Shown: positions 1 through 12,293 of the stretch, in pieces
How positions within the stretch are numbered: the first letter of the stretch is position 1
How the letters are laid out: every line of letters starts with the position of its first letter
NCBI GenBank assembly: GCA_024275955.1
Contig: JAJRYD010000009.1
Coordinates: 1 to 12,810 of the forward strand
Origin: Nitrospirota bacterium
Lineage (GTDB): Bacteria > Nitrospinota_A > UBA7883 > JACRGQ01
Reading direction: 5' to 3'
Length of the DNA: 12,810 nucleotides
Notes under the pieces: model-generated
Seen by the model: the letters and a program-made list of their open reading frames with translations, nothing else
The model's database searches: none
What the model was told of the DNA's origin: nothing
Translations under genes and position numbers: made by a program

Positions 1-849
1 CGCCTGTTCAAATTCCGATGGAGAGCAATATCCAATGGTTGAGTGTTTTCTGACACGATTATAAAACACTTCTATATATTCAAAAACAGACCGCCTAGCC
101 TGATCCCTCGTCAAGTATTTCTCATGATATATCACCTCCGTTTTCAAAGTATGAAAAAAAGATTCAGCAACAGCATTGTCATAGCAGTTTCCCTTGCCAC
201 TCATGCTCTGGATAAAACCGTGTTGGTCAAGCAGGCCACGGAAATCGTTGGCCGCATACTGGCTTCCTCGATCCGAATGGAATATGAGCCCTGCCTTAGG
301 CTTGCGTTTCCATACCGCCATTAAAAAAGCGTTAATGACAATATCTTGCGTAATCCTGTCGCTCATCGCCCAGCCGACAATCTTGCGGGAGAAAATATCG
401 ATAATGACAGCAAGGTAAAGCCAGCCCTCCGTCGTCCAAATGTAGGTAATGTCCGATACAAAAACCTTGTTCGGTCTGCCACCTTTGAATTGCTGGTTAA
501 GCAGGTTCTCAGCCACCGGCAGGTTGTGGCGGGAATTCGTCGTAACCCTGAACCTTCGTTTACTTTTGGCAGCTATGCCGTTTTGCCGCATAAGCCTTGC
601 CGCACGGTTCTCACCGCATTCAAATCCCTCGTCTCTCAATTCATCAGCAACCCTGGGACTGCCGTAGGTCCTACGGCTTTTTGCGTGAATCTCTTTTATC
701 CGAGAAAGCAACAGCTCGTTTTTCAATGCCCGCCTGCTTTTACCACGGCCTCTAAAGGCATAATAACCGCTTCTGGAAACCTTTAACGCAAGGCACATCT
801 TCTCCACACCAAATTCAGGGCAGTGTTCTTCTATGAACATATACTTCAT
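1..849 (-). CDS. IS3-family transposase OrfB (DDE integrase), C-terminus just cut by window edge
   Basis: Catalytic half of the IS3 transposase. 283 residues are visible from the ATG at 847-849; the last readable residues PSEFEQA suggest only a few are missing. Counting from this ATG, the catalytic triad is D133 (SDITYIW), D193 (HSDRGSQY) and E229 (DNAVAESFF), giving the DD(35)E spacing of IS3 and retroviral integrases. The N-terminal part (YGSPRVADELRD, RLMRQNGIAA) is the usual HTH_21-type region. No stop or frameshift is visible, so it could be active. It is probably made mainly as an OrfAB fusion by slippage at 879-885; the ATGA overlap also permits independent initiation. Confidence 0.92.
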   Translation of the reverse strand, partial: MKYMFIEEHCPEFGVEKMCLALKVSRSGYYAFRGRGKSRRALKNELLLSRIKEIHAKSRRTYGSPRVADELRDEGFECGENRAARLMRQNGIAAKSKRRFRVTTNSRHNLPVAENLLNQQFKGGRPNKVFVSDITYIWTTEGWLYLAVIIDIFSRKIVGWAMSDRITQDIVINAFLMAVWKRKPKAGLIFHSDRGSQYAANDFRGLLDQHGFIQSMSGKGNCYDNAVAESFFHTLKTEVIYHEKYLTRDQARRSVFEYIEVFYNRVRKHSTIGYCSPSEFEQA

Positions 850-2639: not shown

Positions 2640-2664
2640 CGGATTGGAGAAAAGGAATGACAAT

Positions 2665-3891
2665 ATGCCGGTAATAAAGCTCACCAAGTCAGCCGTAGAC
2701 CGCCTCCATTACACTGATGACGGTATCACCCTCTACTGGGATGAGAGATTAAAAGGATTTGGAGTAAGGGTCTCCAAGAGTACCAAGGTCTATATTGCCG
2801 AGGGGCGGGTAAAGAACAAGACTAGACGAGTCAAGATAGGAAGCCACCAGAACGAACTCTCTACAGAGGCCGCACGAAGGGAAGCTATGCGGCTCCTATC
2901 ACTTATGGAAACTGGCACCGACCCAAATGCCCTTAAACGAGAAGCAAGAGACAAGGACGAAATCACTCTTGCAAAAGCTTTTGAGGACTATATAGAGGAA
3001 AAAGACCTAAAGCCCAAGACTGTCTACGACTATACACAGACAGTAAACCTTATTTTTGCTACTTGGAAAAGAAAACCCTTGAACGATATAACCAAACGAA
3101 TGGTAGCTAAGAAACATAAAGTAATTGGGGAAAAGCGTGGAAAGGGTTATGCAAACCTCTCAATGCGGATATTGAGGGCGATATTCAAGTTTGCCAAGGC
3201 ACGCTATGACTCAATAGAAGAAACCCCGACTGATGTCCTCTCCGAAACACGCTCTTGGTACAGGAATGTTAGAAGACAGACAGTTATCAGCCAGAGCGCA
3301 CTGCCGGCCTTTTTTGAAGGCTTGGAAAAGCTTGAGGGTAAATCCTCCACTTCAAAAGCTCCGGTTGTCAAAGACTATCTCCTCCTACTCCTCTTTACAG
3401 GATTAAGACGCAATGAGGCGGCAACGCTTCGCTGGGAAGATGTCGATTTAAATGCCAAGACTATTAGAATAGAGGATACAAAAAATCGAGAGGTTCACAC
3501 CCTACCCCTCTCTACTTACCTTTATGTTCTACTTAAAAAAAGGCATGATGAAAAGGGTAATGATGATATCTATGTTTTTCCGGGGTCAGGAGAAAAAGCC
3601 CAGCACCTTGTAGAACCTAGGCGGCAGATGGAAAAAATTACCAAGATGTCAGGCGTTAAATTTACTATCCACGACCTCCGCAGAACATTTGCAACTATCG
3701 CCCAAGGGCTTGTTTCGGCATACGAGTTAAAAACCCTCCTCAATCATAAAATGACCGGAGATGTTACGGCTGGATATATAATTACAGATATTGAATCTCT
3801 CAGGCCGGGGATGCAAAAGATTACTGATGCAATTTTGCGACTTGCCAAAAAGGCACCAGAAGGAAAGGTTATTGCACTAAGAAAAACATAA
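2665..3891 (+). CDS. Tyrosine recombinase integrase, P4-like with DUF4102 arm-binding domain
   Basis: 408 aa from the ATG at 2665, which I prefer to the in-frame TTG at 2644 because AAAGG lies about 8 nt before it and MPVIKLTKSAVDRL is a typical family start. Residues 1-90 form the DUF4102-type N-terminal domain (WDERLKGFGVRVSKS). Then come the SAM-like core-binding domain (roughly 98-200) and the catalytic domain. Catalytic residues, by family pattern: R248 (FTGLRRNEA), probable K273 (EDTKNREV), H336 and R339 (HDLRRTFA), H361 (LLNHK) and nucleophile Y371 (VTAGYI). All are present and the length is normal, so the enzyme looks intact. It should act at the tRNA-Arg fragment about 160 bp upstream. 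Confidence 0.95.
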   Translation: MPVIKLTKSAVDRLHYTDDGITLYWDERLKGFGVRVSKSTKVYIAEGRVKNKTRRVKIGSHQNELSTEAARREAMRLLSLMETGTDPNALKREARDKDEITLAKAFEDYIEEKDLKPKTVYDYTQTVNLIFATWKRKPLNDITKRMVAKKHKVIGEKRGKGYANLSMRILRAIFKFAKARYDSIEETPTDVLSETRSWYRNVRRQTVISQSALPAFFEGLEKLEGKSSTSKAPVVKDYLLLLLFTGLRRNEAATLRWEDVDLNAKTIRIEDTKNREVHTLPLSTYLYVLLKKRHDEKGNDDIYVFPGSGEKAQHLVEPRRQMEKITKMSGVKFTIHDLRRTFATIAQGLVSAYELKTLLNHKMTGDVTAGYIITDIESLRPGMQKITDAILRLAKKAPEGKVIALRKT

Positions 3892-3895
3892 AAAA

Positions 3896-4648
3896 ATGAT
3901 TATAGACATTCTATCCTTTATTCATCCAAAACTTGGGAATAAATGGATTGATTTAAAATTCTGGTGGAACCCTGAGCCATATCGATCAGGTGGTTCAGCA
4001 ACTTCTTATGAAAATATGAAGATAACAGACTATACATACTGGGATTCAATAGTTTTATTTTCTACGCATCAGGCATCTTGCCTTGTTCACGGCTTTTCAC
4101 CCGGGTTTAGCAAGGGGAGCTACCCTGAATATGTCATCAGAACTGAAAGAGATATGATAGATAAATATTTTGATCAGGAGTTTGGATATCATTCTGGACG
4201 AACAGACCCAGATATCAAAAACGAGGCAGATGCAAAGCGAGCTAGGAAATTTAGAGAACCTTACATCGACTTTTTAATTGATGAAATTCAAATGTTCTGC
4301 GAATTAGAAGCTATAGATTCCGCATTTGTTTCTAGGGAGCTTAGAGAAAAAAATGAGCCAAGCGATATCGAGTTAAGCCACACAAAAGCAAAACTTGCAA
4401 AGGTAGAATACCTAAACCCCGCACATACTTATTACGCTCCCCAACTAGCAGAAGCAGTAGATGCTTGGAAAGACCTCTTTGAAAACGGAGAATTTGAGAA
4501 AATCAAAGATGGTAGAGGGCCATATAAGGCGATTAAGGCGTGGCTAGATATAAGAATGCCAGACTCCGACAATGAGCCTCGCAAACGAATTGCTAAAATG
4601 ATTAACCCCGAGAAAGGAGGAGGAGCACCAAAAACTGGAAAACAATGA
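3896..4648 (+). CDS. Hypothetical protein of the integrated element
   Basis: 250 aa, starting 4 nt after the integrase stop with no clear ribosome-binding site, so translation is probably coupled to int. I do not recognise the N-terminal 165 residues: acidic and aromatic-rich, no signal peptide or membrane segment, with many charged helices (NEADAKRARKFREPYIDF). The C-terminus (about 175-250: TYYAPQLAEAVDAWKDLF, then KAIKAWLDIRMP and RKRIAKMINPEKGGG) resembles a pattern I recall from short integron- or ICE-borne proteins: YxxPxLxxAxxAW, then a WL segment, then an IAxMINPD-like end. That would suggest a small C-terminal helical module of unknown role. No function is assigned. Confidence 0.75.
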   Translation: MIIDILSFIHPKLGNKWIDLKFWWNPEPYRSGGSATSYENMKITDYTYWDSIVLFSTHQASCLVHGFSPGFSKGSYPEYVIRTERDMIDKYFDQEFGYHSGRTDPDIKNEADAKRARKFREPYIDFLIDEIQMFCELEAIDSAFVSRELREKNEPSDIELSHTKAKLAKVEYLNPAHTYYAPQLAEAVDAWKDLFENGEFEKIKDGRGPYKAIKAWLDIRMPDSDNEPRKRIAKMINPEKGGGAPKTGKQ

Positions 4649-4820: not shown

Positions 4821-5021
4821 ATGAACAAGTTATTAACAACCAGAGAGACCGCCGAATACCTCGGAATGTCTAAGCAGTTTTTGGAGCGTGACCGTTGGAA
4901 AGGGGCATCAATCCCGTATGTCTTCGTCGGTACTCGCTCAATTCGATATCGAATCGAGGACTTAGATACATTTATCGAATCAAGACTCTACAAACCAGCA
5001 GAAAGGAGGGTAGGCAGATGA
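4821..5021 (+). CDS. AlpA/excisionase-like helix-turn-helix protein
   Basis: 66 aa with one winged-helix/MerR-like HTH (HTH_17 type): LLTTRETAEYLGMSKQFLERD (about residues 4-24) is the HTH, followed by the wing VGTRSIRYRIEDLDTFIESR. Proteins of this kind act as excisionases for P4-type integrases or as small transcriptional regulators. Start: ATG at 4821, with GGAGGTG ending 3 nt before it; an upstream in-frame GTG (4815) overlaps that ribosome-binding site and is unlikely. The stop overlaps the rep start as ATGA, so the two are translationally coupled. It could regulate int, rep, or both. Confidence 0.85.
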   Translation: MNKLLTTRETAEYLGMSKQFLERDRWKGASIPYVFVGTRSIRYRIEDLDTFIESRLYKPAERRVGR

Positions 5022-6003
5022 TTGACTGGGTAACAGCATATCTGCCATGCGAAAATATAGACCCCTTAAAACTGCAAGATGGTTCTTGGTGTGAAATCTC
5101 ACAGGCTGGAAATGTTATCAAGCAGGTAATGAAACCTCTTAGACTGGGAGGCTCGCATTCATCAAGCCTTGCAGTAAGCTATTGGATAAGAGATGGTCAA
5201 CCACAGATAAGAGTTAGCGGAAATTTCGTTAAATGGCTTCAAGGGCATAACCTCTTTGGTACGTCAGACTTGGTTCCGTTAATTTATGCTGTCGGTTTAA
5301 AGCTCTGCAAGATTTTAGAGCTCTCCCCAACTCCGCATAACCTACAAGCATGGCAAACTGGTGATATCTGGCTAACCCGTATCGACTGTACGGAAATGTG
5401 GAAGTTGAAAAGTCAGGGTGATGTACTTGGGTGGCTTAACTCGGCACAATTCCAAGCAAGAAGTCGGCATGGCTCACCAATCATGACTGGCGGTACTCTT
5501 TACTTTGGTAAGCACTCACGCCGTTGGACGATGAAATTTTATGGCAAGTTAGAAGAGATTACGAAAAAAGGTCATAAGCTACCGTACTCAATTGATGATT
5601 ACGATAAGCTATTAGAGTTTGCCGAAAGCATGCTACGGGCAGAGCTGACATTACGCTCACCGGAACTTGGTAAACTAGAGCTAAATACAGCCTCTTGCTG
5701 GAAAGCTTCCACCCCGAAACACTTCTTATGGAACATCTCAACCGATTGGATATAGCCGACCAATTTAAGCTTGCTGACGAATCTGTGCTACTTCTCCCAA
5801 CAGGTTTGATTCCTGTTTATCAGTTATGGGTAGATGGTCATGAGTTAAGGAGTATGATACCCAAAACTTCTTTTTATCGGAAACGCAAACAGCTTTTAAA
5901 ACATGGATTCTATACAGATTTGAACGATTTTTCGGCAGACGATATTGTTTTTTCTATATCTGCGTCGCTATGTGCCAGCGACATGAAACCAGCCTCAAAC
6001 TGA
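5018..6003 (+). pseudogene. Phage/plasmid replication initiator, gene II/X family, apparently frameshifted
   Basis: Filamentous-phage gpII-like initiator of rolling-circle replication. Frame 1 (ATG 5018, AGGAGG upstream, stop 5753-5755, 245 aa) carries the N-terminal Phage_CRI region: RIDCTEMW (121-128), YFGKHSRRWTMKFYGKLEEI (about 162-181) and LRAELTLRSPEL (206-217). The C-terminal Phage_X part is in the -1 frame: LPTGLIPVYQLWVDGH, then SMIPKTSFYRKRKQLL. Adding one C to the CCCC run at 5712-5715 would join STP to ETLLMEHLNRLDIADQF and give one protein of about 328 aa, near the family length. Beyond about 5909 the frame runs antisense into hemL until a stop at 6001-6003, so the native C-terminus is probably lost too. 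Programmed -1 slippage or an assembly error are alternatives. Confidence 0.8.
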
Positions 6004-7187
6004 GACGGAGCAAGGTAGATTCCCTCTTCCAGCATGCTGGCAAAGTAGCGCGAAAACTTTTGTGTATCACTTGTTTTGGCAGTAGCGGCATCGAAAACCT
6101 CGATACCTGTAAAGAACGAGCTAAACATCGCCCCAACCCTGTTGGCCCAGATATTAAGGCCGGCAGATTTAGCCGCTTTTGCGAGACCATCACAAAGTTT
6201 TGCCGATTTTTCTTCCAGTGCTTCGTAGGTTCCATCTTTTTTTAGAATGTTAAGAGTTGCTATACCTGCCGCCATAGCAAGCGGGTTGCCGGAAAGCGTC
6301 CCAGCCTGATAGATATCTCCAGCAGGAGCGATTCTTTCCATTATTTCTTTTTTCCCGCCGTAAGCGCCGACAGGAAGGCCGCCGCCTATAACTTTTCCAA
6401 GCGTTGTAAGATCCGGCGTAACGCCGTACCTTGTCTGAGCGCCTCCGTAGGCAACACGAAACCCCGTCATCACCTCGTCAAAAATAAGAACGGCTCCGTC
6501 TCTATCGCAAATTTTTCTAAGGCCTTCAAGAAAACCATCTTTGGGAGGCAACACTCCCATGTTGCCGACAATCGGTTCAAGAATTATGCAGGCGATACTA
6601 CTTGGATGTTCATCAAAAATCTTTTCGACAGCCACAAGGCTGTTAAAAGGGGCAGTGAGGGTAAGCTTTGCGAGATCGGCCGGCACGCCGGGAGAATCGG
6701 GCAAGCCCAAGGTCTCAACGCCCGAACCAGCTTTTACAAGTAGCGAGTCGCCATGCCCGTGGTAACAGCCTTCGAATTTTAAAATCATATCGCGCCCGGT
6801 GTAGCCGCGCGCAAGCCGTATAGCCGACATAGTAGCCTCGGTACCGGAATTTACCATCCGCACCATCTCGACAGATGGAACGGCATCAATAACCATCTCG
6901 GCAAGTTCTGTTTCTATTTCGGTTGGAGCGCCGAACGATGTGCCGTCTTTCGCGGTTTTCACCACCGCCTCTATAACCGCTTCGTCGGCATGGCCGACAA
7001 TCATCGGCCCCCAGCTCTGAACGTAGTCGATATAGCTCTTGCCGTTTGTGTCGACAATTTTTGAACCTTTGGCGCTTTTGATATAAACAGGATCAAGCCC
7101 GACAGATTTGAACGCGCGTACCGGCGAGTTCACTCCGCCCGGCATAACCTTTTTCGCTTTTTCAAAAAGTTCTGAAAAACTGCTCAT
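5910..7187 (-). CDS. hemL: Glutamate-1-semialdehyde 2,1-aminomutase
   Basis: 425 aa, the normal length. This PLP enzyme converts glutamate-1-semialdehyde to 5-aminolevulinate, the second step of the C5 tetrapyrrole pathway in the cytosol. Class-III aminotransferase fold: [11 protein letters not shown] at residues 16-26, [14 protein letters not shown] (114-127), CYHGHGDS (141-148), FDEVMTGFR (236-244), and the PLP lysine in [15 protein letters not shown] at K265, the same number as in well-studied homologues. C-terminal [13 protein letters not shown] is typical. The ATG overlaps the mtnP stop (ATGA), so it is the second gene of an mtnP-hemL pair. Its stop at 5910 is where the integrated element begins, yet the protein appears complete. 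Confidence 0.97.
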
Positions 7188-8038
7188 TTAATATATTTCC
7201 CTATAATGATGTCGAGGTTCTTTTTCGTTTCGTCCGGTATGAGAGATGGGTCGGTCATAATTGCATGATTCAAAGCTTCTCTACATCCGGCCGGACAGGT
7301 TTCGCTAATAGAGCCTACCGCTTCGGAAATTATTTTTTGCGACATTTCGACATTCGCTTTTATCACTTCCAGTATCGCCTCTGTAGAAACATCTTCCTCC
7401 TCTTCGTACCAGCAGTCGTAGTCTGTAGAGAGGGCGATCGTCACATAACATATCTCTGCTTCTCTTGCCAGCTTTGCCTCGTTAAGGTTTGTCATTCCTA
7501 TTACCGAAGCACCCCAGCTTCTATAAAGGTGAGACTCGGCCCTTGTAGAAAACTGCGGCCCTTCCATGTTTATATATGTTCCGCCAAGATGCACGTTCGC
7601 GCCGGCCCGTTTTGCCGCGTCCGAAACGGTGACAAGAAGGTCTTTGCATATCGGGTCGGCAAACTGCACATGACCAACTATTCCATTGCCAAAAAAACTA
7701 GAGTTTCGCGCGAAGGTACGGTCGATAAACTGGTCGGGGAAGACGATATCTCCGGGCGGTATCTCTTCTTTTAACGAACCGACAGCCGAAACCGAAAGGA
7801 TTCTATCTACCCCAAGCTTTTTCATGCCGTAAATATTCGCTCTAAAATTAAGCTCGGATGGAAGCACTCTATGCCCCTTGCCATGCCTCGGAAGGAAGAC
7901 AACTTCCCTGCCTTTTAACTCGCCGAGAATATATTCGTCCGAAGGGTTTCCAAAAGGAGTGGAAACCTTTTTGGTTCCCTTTGTCTTCAACTCCTTCATA
8001 GCGTAAAGGCCGCTACCGCCGATAATTCCTATTTTCAT
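7184..8038 (-). CDS. mtnP: S-methyl-5'-thioadenosine phosphorylase
   Basis: 284 aa from the ATG at 8038, preceded by GGAGG about 7 nt upstream; the open frame extends further up but through the terminator hairpin. The enzyme cleaves methylthioadenosine with phosphate to adenine and methylthioribose-1-phosphate in methionine salvage. Family features: GIIGGSGLY (4-12), the phosphate-site segment PRHGKGH (50-56), [18 protein letters not shown] (152-169), [13 protein letters not shown] (181-193) and STDYDCW (204-210). The Asp pair in the last motif is the mark of 6-aminopurine specificity, so true MTA phosphorylase is more likely than guanosine or inosine phosphorylase. It is coupled to hemL by a 4-nt overlap. 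No dedicated promoter is obvious in the gap upstream. Confidence 0.95.
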
Positions 8039-8056
8039 TTTTCGCCTCCAGAAAAT

Positions 8057-8087
8057 AAAAAAGGTTCCCCTTTTTAAAAGGGGAACC
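8057..8087 (-). terminator. Rho-independent terminator after the coiled-coil gene
   Basis: Near-perfect 12-bp inverted repeat, GGTTCCCCTTTT against AAAAGGGGAACC (8063-8087), with only one unpaired base between arms, followed on the minus strand by six T (8057-8062) and then ATTTT. It starts 17 nt past the coiled-coil stop. It also lies only 18 nt before the mtnP start codon, so mtnP and hemL depend on read-through or on a promoter inside the coiled-coil gene. Confidence 0.88.
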
Positions 8088-8104
8088 ATTAAATCTTTTT
8101 TGCT

Positions 8105-10396
8105 CTATTCTGTCGGCGTGCTACCGCCCCTTGACTGTCCTGCCGCTTTTCTCTCGACTTCGCCAAGCAGGAACCGAAGCTCCACCATCTGCTGGGATGC
8201 TTTGTCGATAAGATTTTCCTCCGACTGAAGCACCTTGAGCTTAATTTTGATATCTTCCGCGAGTATGTTGAGGTCGTTAAGCCTTTGTTCCGTTCTGTTT
8301 ATAAGCACCATGCGGGTATTAAGGAGATCTATTTTCGCCTCCGCGTCACCCATTATCCCCTGCAGAGATTTTATCTTGTCCACAATCGACGAAAAGTTAT
8401 CCTGATGTTTTGCTATCTGCCTCTCTTGGTCCCTTACATCCTCTATAGATGAAGAAAGAACAGCTATATCCTCCTGCACTCTCCTCAGCACAACCTCTTC
8501 CTGCCCGATATGCTCTATCTGCCTGTCTGTTTTTTCCATCATCAAGTTAAGAAGGTTAAGACGCTTTTCCACCTCAAGCAGTAACTCCTCTTCCTCGCGG
8601 ACGTTAAGAAGCCTCTTTTCCACATCACTAATTTTGTCGGTAATTTCCGCCACTTTGTTCATAGCTTGGTCAAGTGCCTGACCTTTGCCGTTAACCTCGG
8701 CAAGCTGGTTGTCAACTTTTTCAAGCGCCGGCATTATCTCGTTTTTAATCTGGACTATATCTTGGAGAGTGTTGTATCCGTCCTGAAGCTCCTGCAGTTT
8801 TGATGAAACCGATTCTTCAATAACGGTAAGCTTGGAGTTTAAGGTGCTTACACGGCGCTCCTGATTGTCTATCGCGTTTCTTTCTCGTGTAATGTCGAGA
8901 ATCTTTTCCTCGACAACACGGGTAATCTCGCGCAGGTCTTCAACCTTTTTATCAAGACTCTCGAGAAACTCTATCTTTTTTTGTATTCGCTCTACTTTCA
9001 GGGAGGCATCCTCAAGGTAGTAATCGAGACCATCCAGCTTTTTTTCCAGCTTATCAACAAGGTTCTTTCGCTGTAGCTGGTTTTCCATTTTTACGTCAAG
9101 GTTTATAACTGTCGAGGAAAGATCGTTAACTTTCTTTTCTACCTGCTCGACAACAGAGCGCCTGGCGGCAAGATCGCTAACCTGAATTGAGACCGACTCG
9201 TTAAGCTCGGACAGGTTGGCAAGCTTGGTCTCAACCTCTTCGCTAACCTTAACGTCTTCACGAAATTGCTGAATCTTCATCTCGATTTCGTTGGTGTCTG
9301 CCTGAAAACGGCTCATCTTTTCTCTCGCCACCTCGACATGAGACATCTCCTCTTTCAAGATTTTCATCTTGCTTCCTATTGATTCGATAAGGAAAATATT
9401 CAGCTTGTTGATTTTTTCCTCGGTGGCAAGAACGGTCTCCTTATCTTCCCGCACGCGGGCTATGTTTATCTCAAGTTCCGAGTTCATCTCCTCAAGCGAA
9501 CGCAGTTTGGTGGCGATACGCTTTATCATCTCTTCTTTTTGTACGATATTGTTGGTCTCCACCCGTATCGAACTCATCTCTCTGGTAAGATGCACCACAT
9601 CTTTGTTCATCTGGTTTATCACTGCGTTCTGGCGCAAAAGCTCGTCGGCATCGCCGTGGAGTTTCGAGATAAGGACACGGGTCTTTTCTATATCTTGCGT
9701 ATAGCCGGCCATATCTTCTTTTTGACGAAGCAAAAGCTGTATCTTTTCGTCCATCCCTTTAGCCAAGTTGCCAAGCTCTGTAGACTTGCCTTCGTATTCC
9801 CTCATGTTCGCTTTAAAGCTCTCGATAGATTCCATCTTGTCGGAAATCTCGTCCAGCATATTTTCAAGTCTTATCACGCTGTTTTCGGTCTTTTTGATAA
9901 GCTTGCTTTCTTCGGAAAGCTTCTTTATTTTCGCTTCCATATCCCAGATAAGGATATTCAGCTTACCAGCTTCGTCGTTCGCCTTTTCAACAAGAAGCCT
10001 CTGCTGGGACAGCCCCTTTACTTTGCTTTTTATATGCTCAACAAGAAACGAAACCTCGCTGGCAGATTTTTTGTTCTCCAAAAGAGAGTTGTTGACCCCC
10101 TCCTGCGCAGAACTCGCTTCTCTAAGCCTTATCTCAATATTGCGTATTTCGTCGAACTTGCCGGAAATTCCTTCAGAGAACTCCTTGAAAAAAGGAATCT
10201 TTTCTTCAATAAGTTTCATGGAAGAGACGTTTTGGTTAAGATTTTCTATATTACTTTGAATATACTCCACCAAAAGGGTGAGGCTTTTTCGCTGAGCATT
10301 AGCCTCTTTTACCAGCTCCGAAAACTGCTCTATATCTTGCTTGGTAAGCGCCTCGCCGGACTGACCGACCTTTTTGCCTTCGGTTTCTTTAGCCAT
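8105..10396 (-). CDS. Long coiled-coil protein made of 31-residue repeats, function unknown
   Basis: 763 aa, no signal peptide, membrane segment or enzymatic motif; polar ends (MAKETEGKKVGQSGEA, and a Gly/Ser/Thr tail QSRGGSTPTE). From about residue 48 to the end the sequence is helical and strongly charged, in tandem units that begin with a pattern like KKVxxLxxxL. Unit starts can be placed at 48, 79, 110, 141, 172, 203, 234, 265, 296, 327, 359, 390, 421, 452, 483, 514, 545, 580, 611, 642, 673, 704 and 735. Twenty of 22 steps are exactly 31 residues; the others are 32 and 35. Examples are KKLDGLDYYLEDASLK (452) and QRLNDLNILAEDIKIK (704). A 31-residue unit equals four heptads plus three residues. 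Start: ATG 10396 with GGAGG about 10 nt upstream, behind a good promoter. A structural or scaffolding role is plausible but inferred. Confidence 0.9.
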   Translation of the reverse strand: MAKETEGKKVGQSGEALTKQDIEQFSELVKEANAQRKSLTLLVEYIQSNIENLNQNVSSMKLIEEKIPFFKEFSEGISGKFDEIRNIEIRLREASSAQEGVNNSLLENKKSASEVSFLVEHIKSKVKGLSQQRLLVEKANDEAGKLNILIWDMEAKIKKLSEESKLIKKTENSVIRLENMLDEISDKMESIESFKANMREYEGKSTELGNLAKGMDEKIQLLLRQKEDMAGYTQDIEKTRVLISKLHGDADELLRQNAVINQMNKDVVHLTREMSSIRVETNNIVQKEEMIKRIATKLRSLEEMNSELEINIARVREDKETVLATEEKINKLNIFLIESIGSKMKILKEEMSHVEVAREKMSRFQADTNEIEMKIQQFREDVKVSEEVETKLANLSELNESVSIQVSDLAARRSVVEQVEKKVNDLSSTVINLDVKMENQLQRKNLVDKLEKKLDGLDYYLEDASLKVERIQKKIEFLESLDKKVEDLREITRVVEEKILDITRERNAIDNQERRVSTLNSKLTVIEESVSSKLQELQDGYNTLQDIVQIKNEIMPALEKVDNQLAEVNGKGQALDQAMNKVAEITDKISDVEKRLLNVREEEELLLEVEKRLNLLNLMMEKTDRQIEHIGQEEVVLRRVQEDIAVLSSSIEDVRDQERQIAKHQDNFSSIVDKIKSLQGIMGDAEAKIDLLNTRMVLINRTEQRLNDLNILAEDIKIKLKVLQSEENLIDKASQQMVELRFLLGEVERKAAGQSRGGSTPTE

Positions 10397-10443: not shown

Positions 10444-10473
10444 ATTATCACTGCATAACCTACGCTTTGTCAA
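10444..10473 (-). promoter_or_regulatory. Sigma70-type promoter of the coiled-coil gene
   Basis: Minus-strand TTGACA (10468-10473, perfect), 18-bp spacer, GATAAT (10444-10449, 5/6). Transcription would begin near 10437, about 40 nt before the ATG. This is the best promoter match in the window. Confidence 0.75.
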
Positions 10474-10658: not shown

Positions 10659-10961
10659 GAGCCTGTTTCTTTAAAGATACCTCATTATTCACCATCGCCC
10701 GCCGCCGATTCAGCCAAAGAGCCGGCCTCGACATTTTAAAGAGGCTACGCCTGCATAAATACATTACAAATTCATTTTTAAGCCTCTCTTCTCTGCTGGC
10801 GCGCCGCTTCGAGCCTAGCGCGGTAACCCGCATTTAGGCGCAAAAATATGAAAATATTGGTTTTTCCCAAAATATGGGGGTTACTTTTACTGGAAAAGTT
10901 TTGTAGAATACGAAATTATATGCGCAAAGGCGTTTTGCTAATTTTAAGGAGGGGAGTTCGT
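10659..10961 (+). other. Leader region of the porin gene
   Basis: About 300 nt. The first part (10659-10845) is GC-mixed and shows no convincing gene on either strand. 10848-10961 is AT-rich and should hold the porin promoter. A TAGAAT at about 10904-10909 could be a -10 box, but its -35 (TTACTT, 17 bp upstream) is poor. CCCA-AAATA-TGGG at 10866-10878 is a small inverted repeat of doubtful meaning. Confidence 0.3.
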
Positions 10962-12293
10962 ATGAAAAGATTTTGCACCATATTTCTGTCAATCCTATTG
11001 TTCGCACCGGCGAGTGTCGGGTTTGCGGCGGAGACAGGTCTCTACACTAAAGACGATGTTTCGGTAAAGTTCTCTGGGCTGATGAGAATACGGCCCGAAT
11101 TTAGGAAAAATGGCGACTTTAACAGTAGCACTGCCGATTACAGAGATTTCACCGGCCAAAGAATAAGGCTTAACTTCAAGGTGAAAGCTGGCGACGGTAT
11201 CGACGCGTTCGTCAGCCTGCAGGACGCACGGTTCTGGAGTGCGGATAACAGCATAAACGGCGCACAGACTAACGCGGATAACGTTAGGTCGAGCCGTGAA
11301 AACGAATCGGTTGATGTTCATCAAGCTTGGTTCAAGGTAAAAGATGTTTTCGGCGCTCCTGTAGATTTAAAAATAGGCCGACAGGAACTAGTGTACGGAA
11401 GTCAAAGACTTTTCGGTAACTTAGGATGGCAGGATCAAGCCCGTTCCTTCAACGCCTATAAGCTTATCTGGAAAATAGAAGGTGCCGGACAGGTAGATTT
11501 TATCTCCGCGAAGCTAAAAGACACCAATATATCGGCCGCATCCTCCGGTGATCAGGATGTGTACGGTCTCTACTCTATCTGGAAAGCTGTTCCGAACAAC
11601 AAAATTGATGTCTACTACCTCGTATGGGCAGATGCTTCTATCGGTAGAAAGATAAATACCGCTGGCGCAAGGATTGCCGGTAAATATGCCGGCATCGGCA
11701 ACGGCACTTTTGATTACACTGGTGAGTATGCCTCTCAGGGCGGCGACTGGAAAACAAATATCTCCCAGTCCGCGAGTGCTTTGGCAGTTACTGCCGGCTA
11801 CACTTTCGACTATGCATGGAAAACAAGGTTTGGCCTTGAGTTCGACCAAGGGTCGGGCGGAGCCGATGGAACAACAACAACCGCCAACAAAAACTTCGTC
11901 TTCCCGTTCCATACGAACCATGGACAATACGGTTACATGGACAACTTCAGCTGGGGCAACATGCAGGATATCGTAATCAAGTTAAAGACCAAACCGGGCG
12001 GCGGCAAGACAACCGTAAAGCTCGATTACCATATGTTTAAACTGCAGGACGCTAAAGGCGATTGGCTGAACGTGGTCGGCACGAAAGCTTTAAACGGTAT
12101 GGATGGTGCCAGCACCTACACCAAAACTGATGCCGGCACGGAAATCGACCTTACAGTTGTCCACCCTTACAGCAAACGCCTTAAAGTTGTTCTCGGCTAT
12201 TCGATCTTTCAGCCCGGAGAAGCTGTTAAGGAAAGAACCGGCAAAGATGACAGCTCCGAATGGGGCTACGCAATGTTCATCATGAGCTTCTAG
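10962..12293 (+). CDS. Outer-membrane porin, alginate-export (Alginate_exp)-like beta barrel
   Basis: 443 aa from the ATG at 10962, chosen because AAGGAGG lies just upstream and the next residues form a signal peptide (MKRFCTIFLSILLFAPASVGFAA, cleavage near residue 23); an in-frame ATG at 10848 would bury it. The mature protein alternates polar and hydrophobic residues as barrel strands do, and ends WGYAMFIMSF, with the C-terminal Phe recognised by the BAM machinery. The segment VDLKIGRQELVYGSQRLFG, then a WxxQARSFNA motif (about residues 137-165), is characteristic of Alginate_exp-type porins. These form 18-strand-like channels for anionic polymers or small solutes; the substrate here cannot be read. 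It is a single gene with its own terminator. Confidence 0.88.
   Translation: MKRFCTIFLSILLFAPASVGFAAETGLYTKDDVSVKFSGLMRIRPEFRKNGDFNSSTADYRDFTGQRIRLNFKVKAGDGIDAFVSLQDARFWSADNSINGAQTNADNVRSSRENESVDVHQAWFKVKDVFGAPVDLKIGRQELVYGSQRLFGNLGWQDQARSFNAYKLIWKIEGAGQVDFISAKLKDTNISAASSGDQDVYGLYSIWKAVPNNKIDVYYLVWADASIGRKINTAGARIAGKYAGIGNGTFDYTGEYASQGGDWKTNISQSASALAVTAGYTFDYAWKTRFGLEFDQGSGGADGTTTTANKNFVFPFHTNHGQYGYMDNFSWGNMQDIVIKLKTKPGGGKTTVKLDYHMFKLQDAKGDWLNVVGTKALNGMDGASTYTKTDAGTEIDLTVVHPYSKRLKVVLGYSIFQPGEAVKERTGKDDSSEWGYAMFIMSF

Follow-up and report, generated by a model that had tools for sequence, protein, structure and literature searches.

The coiled-coil gene and its genomic neighbourhood

The window, that is, the whole stretch of 12,810 nucleotides analysed here, carries on its reverse strand a gene (8105..10396, stop codon included) identified from the ORF list and its translation as encoding a coiled-coil rod. 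The protein has 763 residues (87.5 kDa, pI 5.1), with no cysteine, three prolines and a single tryptophan. A Pfam search with this protein retrieved no domain above the cut-off, and inspection of the 763-aa translation revealed neither a membrane segment nor a C-terminal HTH-like segment. Consensus matching placed a sigma-70-like promoter upstream of the gene (10444..10473, reverse strand; TTGACA-18-GATAAT, 11 out of 12 positions), such matches being no more numerous in the region than expected by chance. A terminator-like hairpin of 11 pairs followed by a T run (8063..8087, reverse strand) was detected in the same way between the rod gene and mtnP. These promoter-like and terminator-like signals suggest that the rod gene is probably transcribed alone.

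The next genes on the reverse strand are mtnP (S-methyl-5'-thioadenosine phosphorylase; 7184..8089), whose true start is probably an internal ATG near 8041, past the hairpin, and hemL (glutamate-1-semialdehyde 2,1-aminomutase; 5910..7187). The order rod-mtnP-hemL recurs in the family of the window and in Nitrospinaceae, while in other families the rod gene is followed by that of the NAD(P)HX epimerase/dehydratase. Upstream of the rod lies a divergent Alginate_exp-type outer-membrane porin (10848-12293, forward strand; PF13372), and a similar-looking porin is found upstream in G002.

The segment 2644-6003, beside hemL, has the appearance of a filamentous-phage-like element that has integrated and undergone a frameshift. 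It contains a tyrosine integrase (2644-3891, forward strand), an unmatched ORF (3896-4648, forward strand) and a filamentous-phage-type replication protein (4895-6003, forward strand; PF05144, phrog_702) that extends into another, overlapping frame, with 5695-6003 matching positions 298-329 of phrog_702. An IS3-family-like transposase (DDE integrase; 1-849, reverse strand), recognised by eye from its translation, is cut by the window edge. No tRNA was found within the window.

A 31-residue period along the rod

The initial annotation, made by laying out the translation by eye, had described this ORF as an array of about 22 coiled-coil units with a 31-residue period. Kyte-Doolittle autocorrelation bears this out, with peaks at lag 31 (0.445) and its multiples 62 (0.348), 93 (0.336) and 124 (0.263). 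The lag-31 value reached at most 0.137 in 5,000 full shuffles of the protein and 0.163 in 3,000 block shuffles, which preserve the local pattern of 7-18 residues, and it was only 0.01-0.06 in the arms of Escherichia coli MukB and SbcC. The peak is thus beyond that of both shuffled and generic coiled-coil controls. In a scan of named genomes, 31 was the top lag in 20 out of 21 homologues, the exception (L041) having been translated in the wrong frame, and it was also the best lag in 97% of 200-residue windows from the family. Among 44 coiled-coil windows outside the family, a small control set drawn mostly from SpiroCoCo proteins, values of at least 0.26 were found only in SpiroCoCo C-termini.

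A homologue-averaged profile delimited 20 clear 31-residue units that form a regular array from protein residue 110 to 734 (8195..10069, reverse strand), in which 17 out of 19 steps are exactly 31 and the two breaks measure 32 (296 to 328) and 35 (483 to 518). Profile correlation added two N-terminal units, starting at residues 34 and 65 (10112..10297, reverse strand), whose phase is offset by 14 from the main array. The total of about 22 units proposed initially is therefore upheld, as 20 clean units plus two, and the exceptions of 32 and 35 are those noted by eye, while the proposed regularity of 20 out of 22 steps from residue 48 reduces to the 17 out of 19 of the clear array. The unit starts assigned to residues 48 and 79 correlate poorly with the profile (0.42 and 0.51) and are 14 residues out of phase, whereas 34 and 65 fit better (0.69 and 0.79). 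The step to residue 110 is accordingly 45 residues, and the eye had been misled by two heptads.

Unit anatomy and superhelix geometry

The core spacing 3-4-3-4-3-4-3-3-4 read from the single translation was recovered on the family-averaged profile, where core residues occupy unit positions 3, 6, 10, 13, 17, 20, 24, 27 and 30, forming nine layers. The unit consists of three heptads and a decad (7+7+7+10 = 31), i.e. a stammer that recurs every 31 residues. Core positions 24 and 30 show fixed layer chemistry: the former is charged in 56% of cases, and at the latter a charge is never found and a small residue (A/T/S) is present in 39%. Position 16 is mostly K/R and position 31 mostly E. The hydrophobic period is 31/9 = 3.444 residues, with a power of 60.9, compared to 0.4 at 3.500 and 0.0 at 3.667, as computed after deleting the five break residues; without this correction, each of the raw blocks between breaks peaks at 3.441-3.450.

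Stammers overwind coils and are usually accommodated by a short 3-10 segment; the known examples are for the most part isolated breaks under strain, and the majority of coils known to depart from the heptad have more than 3.5 residues per layer (PMC4786415). With a stammer every 31 residues, the hydrophobic stripe recurs at 3.444 residues per layer, and the supercoil of two parallel chains should be tighter than that of a heptad coil. Assuming 3.63 residues per turn, we calculated a supercoil of 5.35 degrees per residue, a full turn every ~67 residues (pitch about 100 A) and a rotation of about 166 degrees per 31-residue (46-A) unit; the same arithmetic, which is a computation and not a measurement, gives about 144 A for a heptad coil.

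Phyletic spread and constraint on length

Full-length orthologues of the rod are present in most genomes of the class of the window. The named relatives belong to Nitrospinota, Nitrospinales and Nitrospinaceae, together with one Tectomicrobia record and some labelled Nitrospirae, and members beyond the window's own GTDB phylum were found in G236, G160, G287, G348, G143 and G280. In the phylum of G315, the gene was detected in 51 out of 77 genomes; it is missing in about one third, many of which are incomplete, and this pattern of absence makes its function look dispensable. A search of 385 genomes with a three-unit profile retrieved nothing beyond the rod family and its distant relatives.

The gene is under purifying selection, with dN/dS values of 0.04-0.07 among orthologues within one genus. 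Conservation peaks near residues 38, 142-147 (motif LNVLFWDMES), 450, 708 and 743. The homologue alignment defined a most conserved patch at residues ~133-154 (RLLVEKANDEAGKLNILIWDME; 9935..10000, reverse strand), with a mean pairwise identity of 0.82-0.89 in a 15-residue window, a second one at residues ~431-468 (INLDVKMENQLQRKNLVDKLEKKLDGLDYYLEDASLKV; 8993..9106, reverse strand) and a C-terminal one at residues ~700-754 (8135..8299, reverse strand). The spacers between the patches have a mean pairwise identity of 18-33%.

Length is maintained far more strictly than sequence. The alignment of 14 full-length homologues, with 32-67% identity, contains no indel over residues 21-700, and the alignments of the G236 (35%) and G160 (24%) proteins are also gap-free over this range. 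Relatives from other lineages, at 24-38% identity, keep both the length and the breaks of the repeat, and in the ~760-aa homologues tested the breaks of 32 and 35 fall at identical places. The earlier suggestion of selection on superhelix geometry is supported by these 680 indel-free residues down to 24% identity, by the shared breaks and by a period of 3.444, the power at 3.500 being close to zero. There is precedent for functional constraint on length in length-conserved spacers (PMC5082667) and in SMC arms, whose length is restricted (PMC5344682).

Another explanation would be that the 31-residue period is a mere by-product of the duplication of a single coiled-coil unit, kept without selection on geometry. 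It accounts for the fact that a unit profile still relates the units of the rod to each other, and for the existence of four distant members of 889-920 aa with additional units, which indicate that the number of units is not fixed over long times. However, most of the unit blocks compared within the rod have diverged to ~10-19% identity, yet their spacing and breaks are fixed and indels are absent, which makes this explanation very improbable.

Predicted structure of the rod

The full-length AlphaFold model, built with 18 homologues, consists of three long helices (pLDDT 69) separated by gaps at residues 145-169 and 421-455. When residues 95-514 were folded alone, both gaps turned helical (pLDDT ~85 and 74) and the break shifted to ~286-296. 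Hinges at 145-169 and 421-455 were consequently rejected, and the gaps are taken as artefacts of a long single chain folding back on itself. The confidence of these models is moderate (pLDDT 69 and 76). On our preferred reading, the protein forms a single predicted rod of ~728 helical residues, which would measure ~108 nm with a rise of 1.48 A for each residue.

Repeats of similar length also occur in alpha-solenoids (TPR/mTERF-like, ~31-34 residues). That architecture was ruled out by the predicted continuous helices, the presence of only three prolines in 763 aa and the lack of a Pfam repeat match, and the predicted models contain no helix-turn-helix hairpin per unit. Among solved structures, the best matches (E-value down to 5e-5) were to designed helical bundles, reovirus sigma-1 and chemoreceptors and were taken as generic; the coiled coils of PADLOC defence systems likewise gave only weak, generic matches. 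A net-charge stagger calculation showed no clear optimum at multiples of 31, and lateral assembly in 31-residue steps is thus left without electrostatic support.

Relationship to SpiroCoCo and other long coiled coils

The closest curated family is SpiroCoCo, and the initial statement that no named family has this unit needs qualification on its account. The rod scores 134.1 bits against NF047515 (SpiroCoCo_C; NCBIfam), above the cut-off of 125, and all eight members of A3 match this profile; hhalign aligned the rod and SpiroCoCo over 239 columns (88% probability, E-value 3e-6). SpiroCoCo proteins are also long coiled coils, and in the three genomes analysed their C-terminal ~285 aa have the highest autocorrelation at lag 31 or close to it (0.34-0.37), whereas lag 31 is near or below zero in the remainder of these proteins. 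On this basis, the rod could be a member of the spirochaete SpiroCoCo family and work likewise. We consider this quite improbable. The above-cut-off score is the sum of four stretches of a repetitive protein, the best of which reaches only ~47 bits, and the unit profile of the rod matches only 1-3 units of SpiroCoCo. Unlike the rod, SpiroCoCo proteins (1317-1714 aa) have an N-terminal hydrophobic segment, a middle region based on hendecads and heptads (11/7) and a C-terminal HTH-like segment. The hydrophobic and HTH-like segments are present in three proteins that exceed the cut-off (L060-L062). Because the rod also fails the SpiroCoCo_N test (36.7 bits, below the cut-off of 75; NF047514/NF047515 family), lacks these flanking segments and matches few units, we do not classify it with SpiroCoCo, and its automatic naming as such would be misleading. 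The part of the initial statement that has to be revised concerns SpiroCoCo_C, whose cut-off is exceeded and whose C-terminus shares the lag-31 peak. A literature search for SpiroCoCo or a 31-residue coiled-coil repeat returned nothing relevant.

In L060-L062, the middle regions show lags of 11, 22, 29 and 47, and lag 31 appears only in the C-terminal ~285 aa. A single SpiroCoCo rod thus seems to contain two types of coil geometry.

Other long coiled coils are more remote. SF-assemblin, a segmented coiled coil that forms filaments, is made of 29-residue units of four heptads and a skip residue (PMC8435291), and its succession of four-heptad units with an insert makes it the nearest analogy for the way the rod may work. 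It differs in the length of its units, each with one skip, and in being a eukaryotic striated rootlet protein of ~34 kDa. Crescentin and FilP are, like the rod, long cytoplasmic coiled-coil rods of bacteria, but they are heptad rods with isolated breaks, such as the single stutter noted in crescentin (PMC10873595, PMC2680258), and neither matched the rod in Pfam, NCBIfam or PDB searches. The arms of SMC, MukB and Rad50 share with it a great length constrained in periodic steps (PMC5344682) and weak, generic profile matches (TIGR02168: 44.6 bits against a cut-off of 567). The ATPase heads and hinge of these proteins are missing in the rod, which has no such Pfam domain and is helical throughout.

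Possible cellular roles

We see an even chance that the protein acts as a cytoplasmic, parallel coiled-coil rod, a homodimer of ~108 nm serving as a filament scaffold or ruler. In this model, two chains, assumed to be parallel, would form a wholly alpha-helical rod whose left-handed supercoil is more tightly wound than that of heptad coils, and the homodimer would either self-assemble as a scaffold or run along a regular partner. Since each unit would rotate by nearly half a turn, equivalent faces might be presented on the same side every 46 A. The patches near residues 145, 450 and 743, which would lie ~43-45 nm apart, could be fixed docking sites, and the spacers between them differ in sequence among the ~760-aa orthologues while keeping a constant length; the distances from patch to patch, ~304 and ~293 residues, agree only approximately. 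The likely role of such a rod would be to organise an accessory structure of the cell body, one concerned with cell shape, growth of the envelope or the base of the motility apparatus, rather than an essential housekeeping function.

The initial annotation found no clue to function in the neighbours, and this largely holds for mtnP and hemL, given that the rod gene has promoter-like and terminator-like signals of its own. It does not extend to the relatives, where flagellar, chemotaxis and PBP1A genes lie nearby and provide suggestive, though not strict, links. One possibility is a motility-linked tether or polar organiser, a rod that would not assemble into filaments but would keep components of the flagellar or chemosensory apparatus a set distance apart. 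Co-occurrence with FlhA points in this direction, both in the class of the window (16 genomes with both, 1 + 1 discordant and 5 with neither; Fisher p 0.001) and in the phylum of G315 (43/7/15/12 in this order; p 0.005), in neither case corrected for phylogeny or completeness. In G028, both genes have decayed: a rod remnant of ~72 codons persists between asd and mtnP (L065), and flhA is broken. Read without a background estimate, the neighbourhoods in the family of the window place a flagellin gene within ~5 kb in G003, G005, G008 and G009, and flgB-fliE within ~8 kb in G005 and G009. Genes recognised by eye include a chemoreceptor-like one directly upstream of the rod in G007 and a CheV-like one two genes downstream in G011 and G021. 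However, the rod occurs without FlhA in G176, G287, G397, G452 and G454, and FlhA without the rod in G400, G402, G403, G428 and G438, which are at least 95% complete. Genomes discordant in both directions rule out a strict dependence on flagella, and we regard the tether as unlikely, if worth considering. MreB, tried as another co-occurrence marker, is present everywhere and hence uninformative.

In two lineages (G236 and G160), the gene that immediately follows the rod gene is a bifunctional PBP1A-type one (PF00912 + PF00905), as would be expected of a cell-envelope growth factor scaffolding peptidoglycan synthesis. The Nitrospinota loci read, in contrast, adjoin mtnP, hemL, pdxJ or the NAD(P)HX epimerase/dehydratase gene and not cell-wall synthesis genes, and an envelope role of this kind seems rather improbable.

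We retain the scaffold or ruler as our working model. A natural coiled coil of more than 90 nm with a sustained sub-heptad period, present in several bacterial lineages, might represent an overwound rod or filament of a kind not described before, its docking patches ~44 nm apart, and so a novel cytoskeletal or ruler element of Nitrospinota and their relatives; we advance this only tentatively. A family in which a stammer occurs ~20 times in succession and has been kept through deep divergence would give a natural example on which to test ideas about tightly wound coils, and its 31/9 period would offer coiled-coil designers a new sub-heptad period. Such a family would also draw attention to an as yet unstudied structural protein of Nitrospinota, the phylum to which major marine nitrite oxidisers belong.

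Shortened or missing copies were observed in a few genomes. Within genus g339, the orthologues of G399, G401 and G404 seem to miss residues 96-160, including the most conserved patch, and other genomes of this genus (e.g. G400, G402 and G403) lack the rod gene entirely. In G016, whose genus is without flhA, a strongly diverged, shortened coiled coil of 471 aa (L101:4753-6165) lies where the rod gene would be, ahead of that for the NAD(P)HX epimerase.
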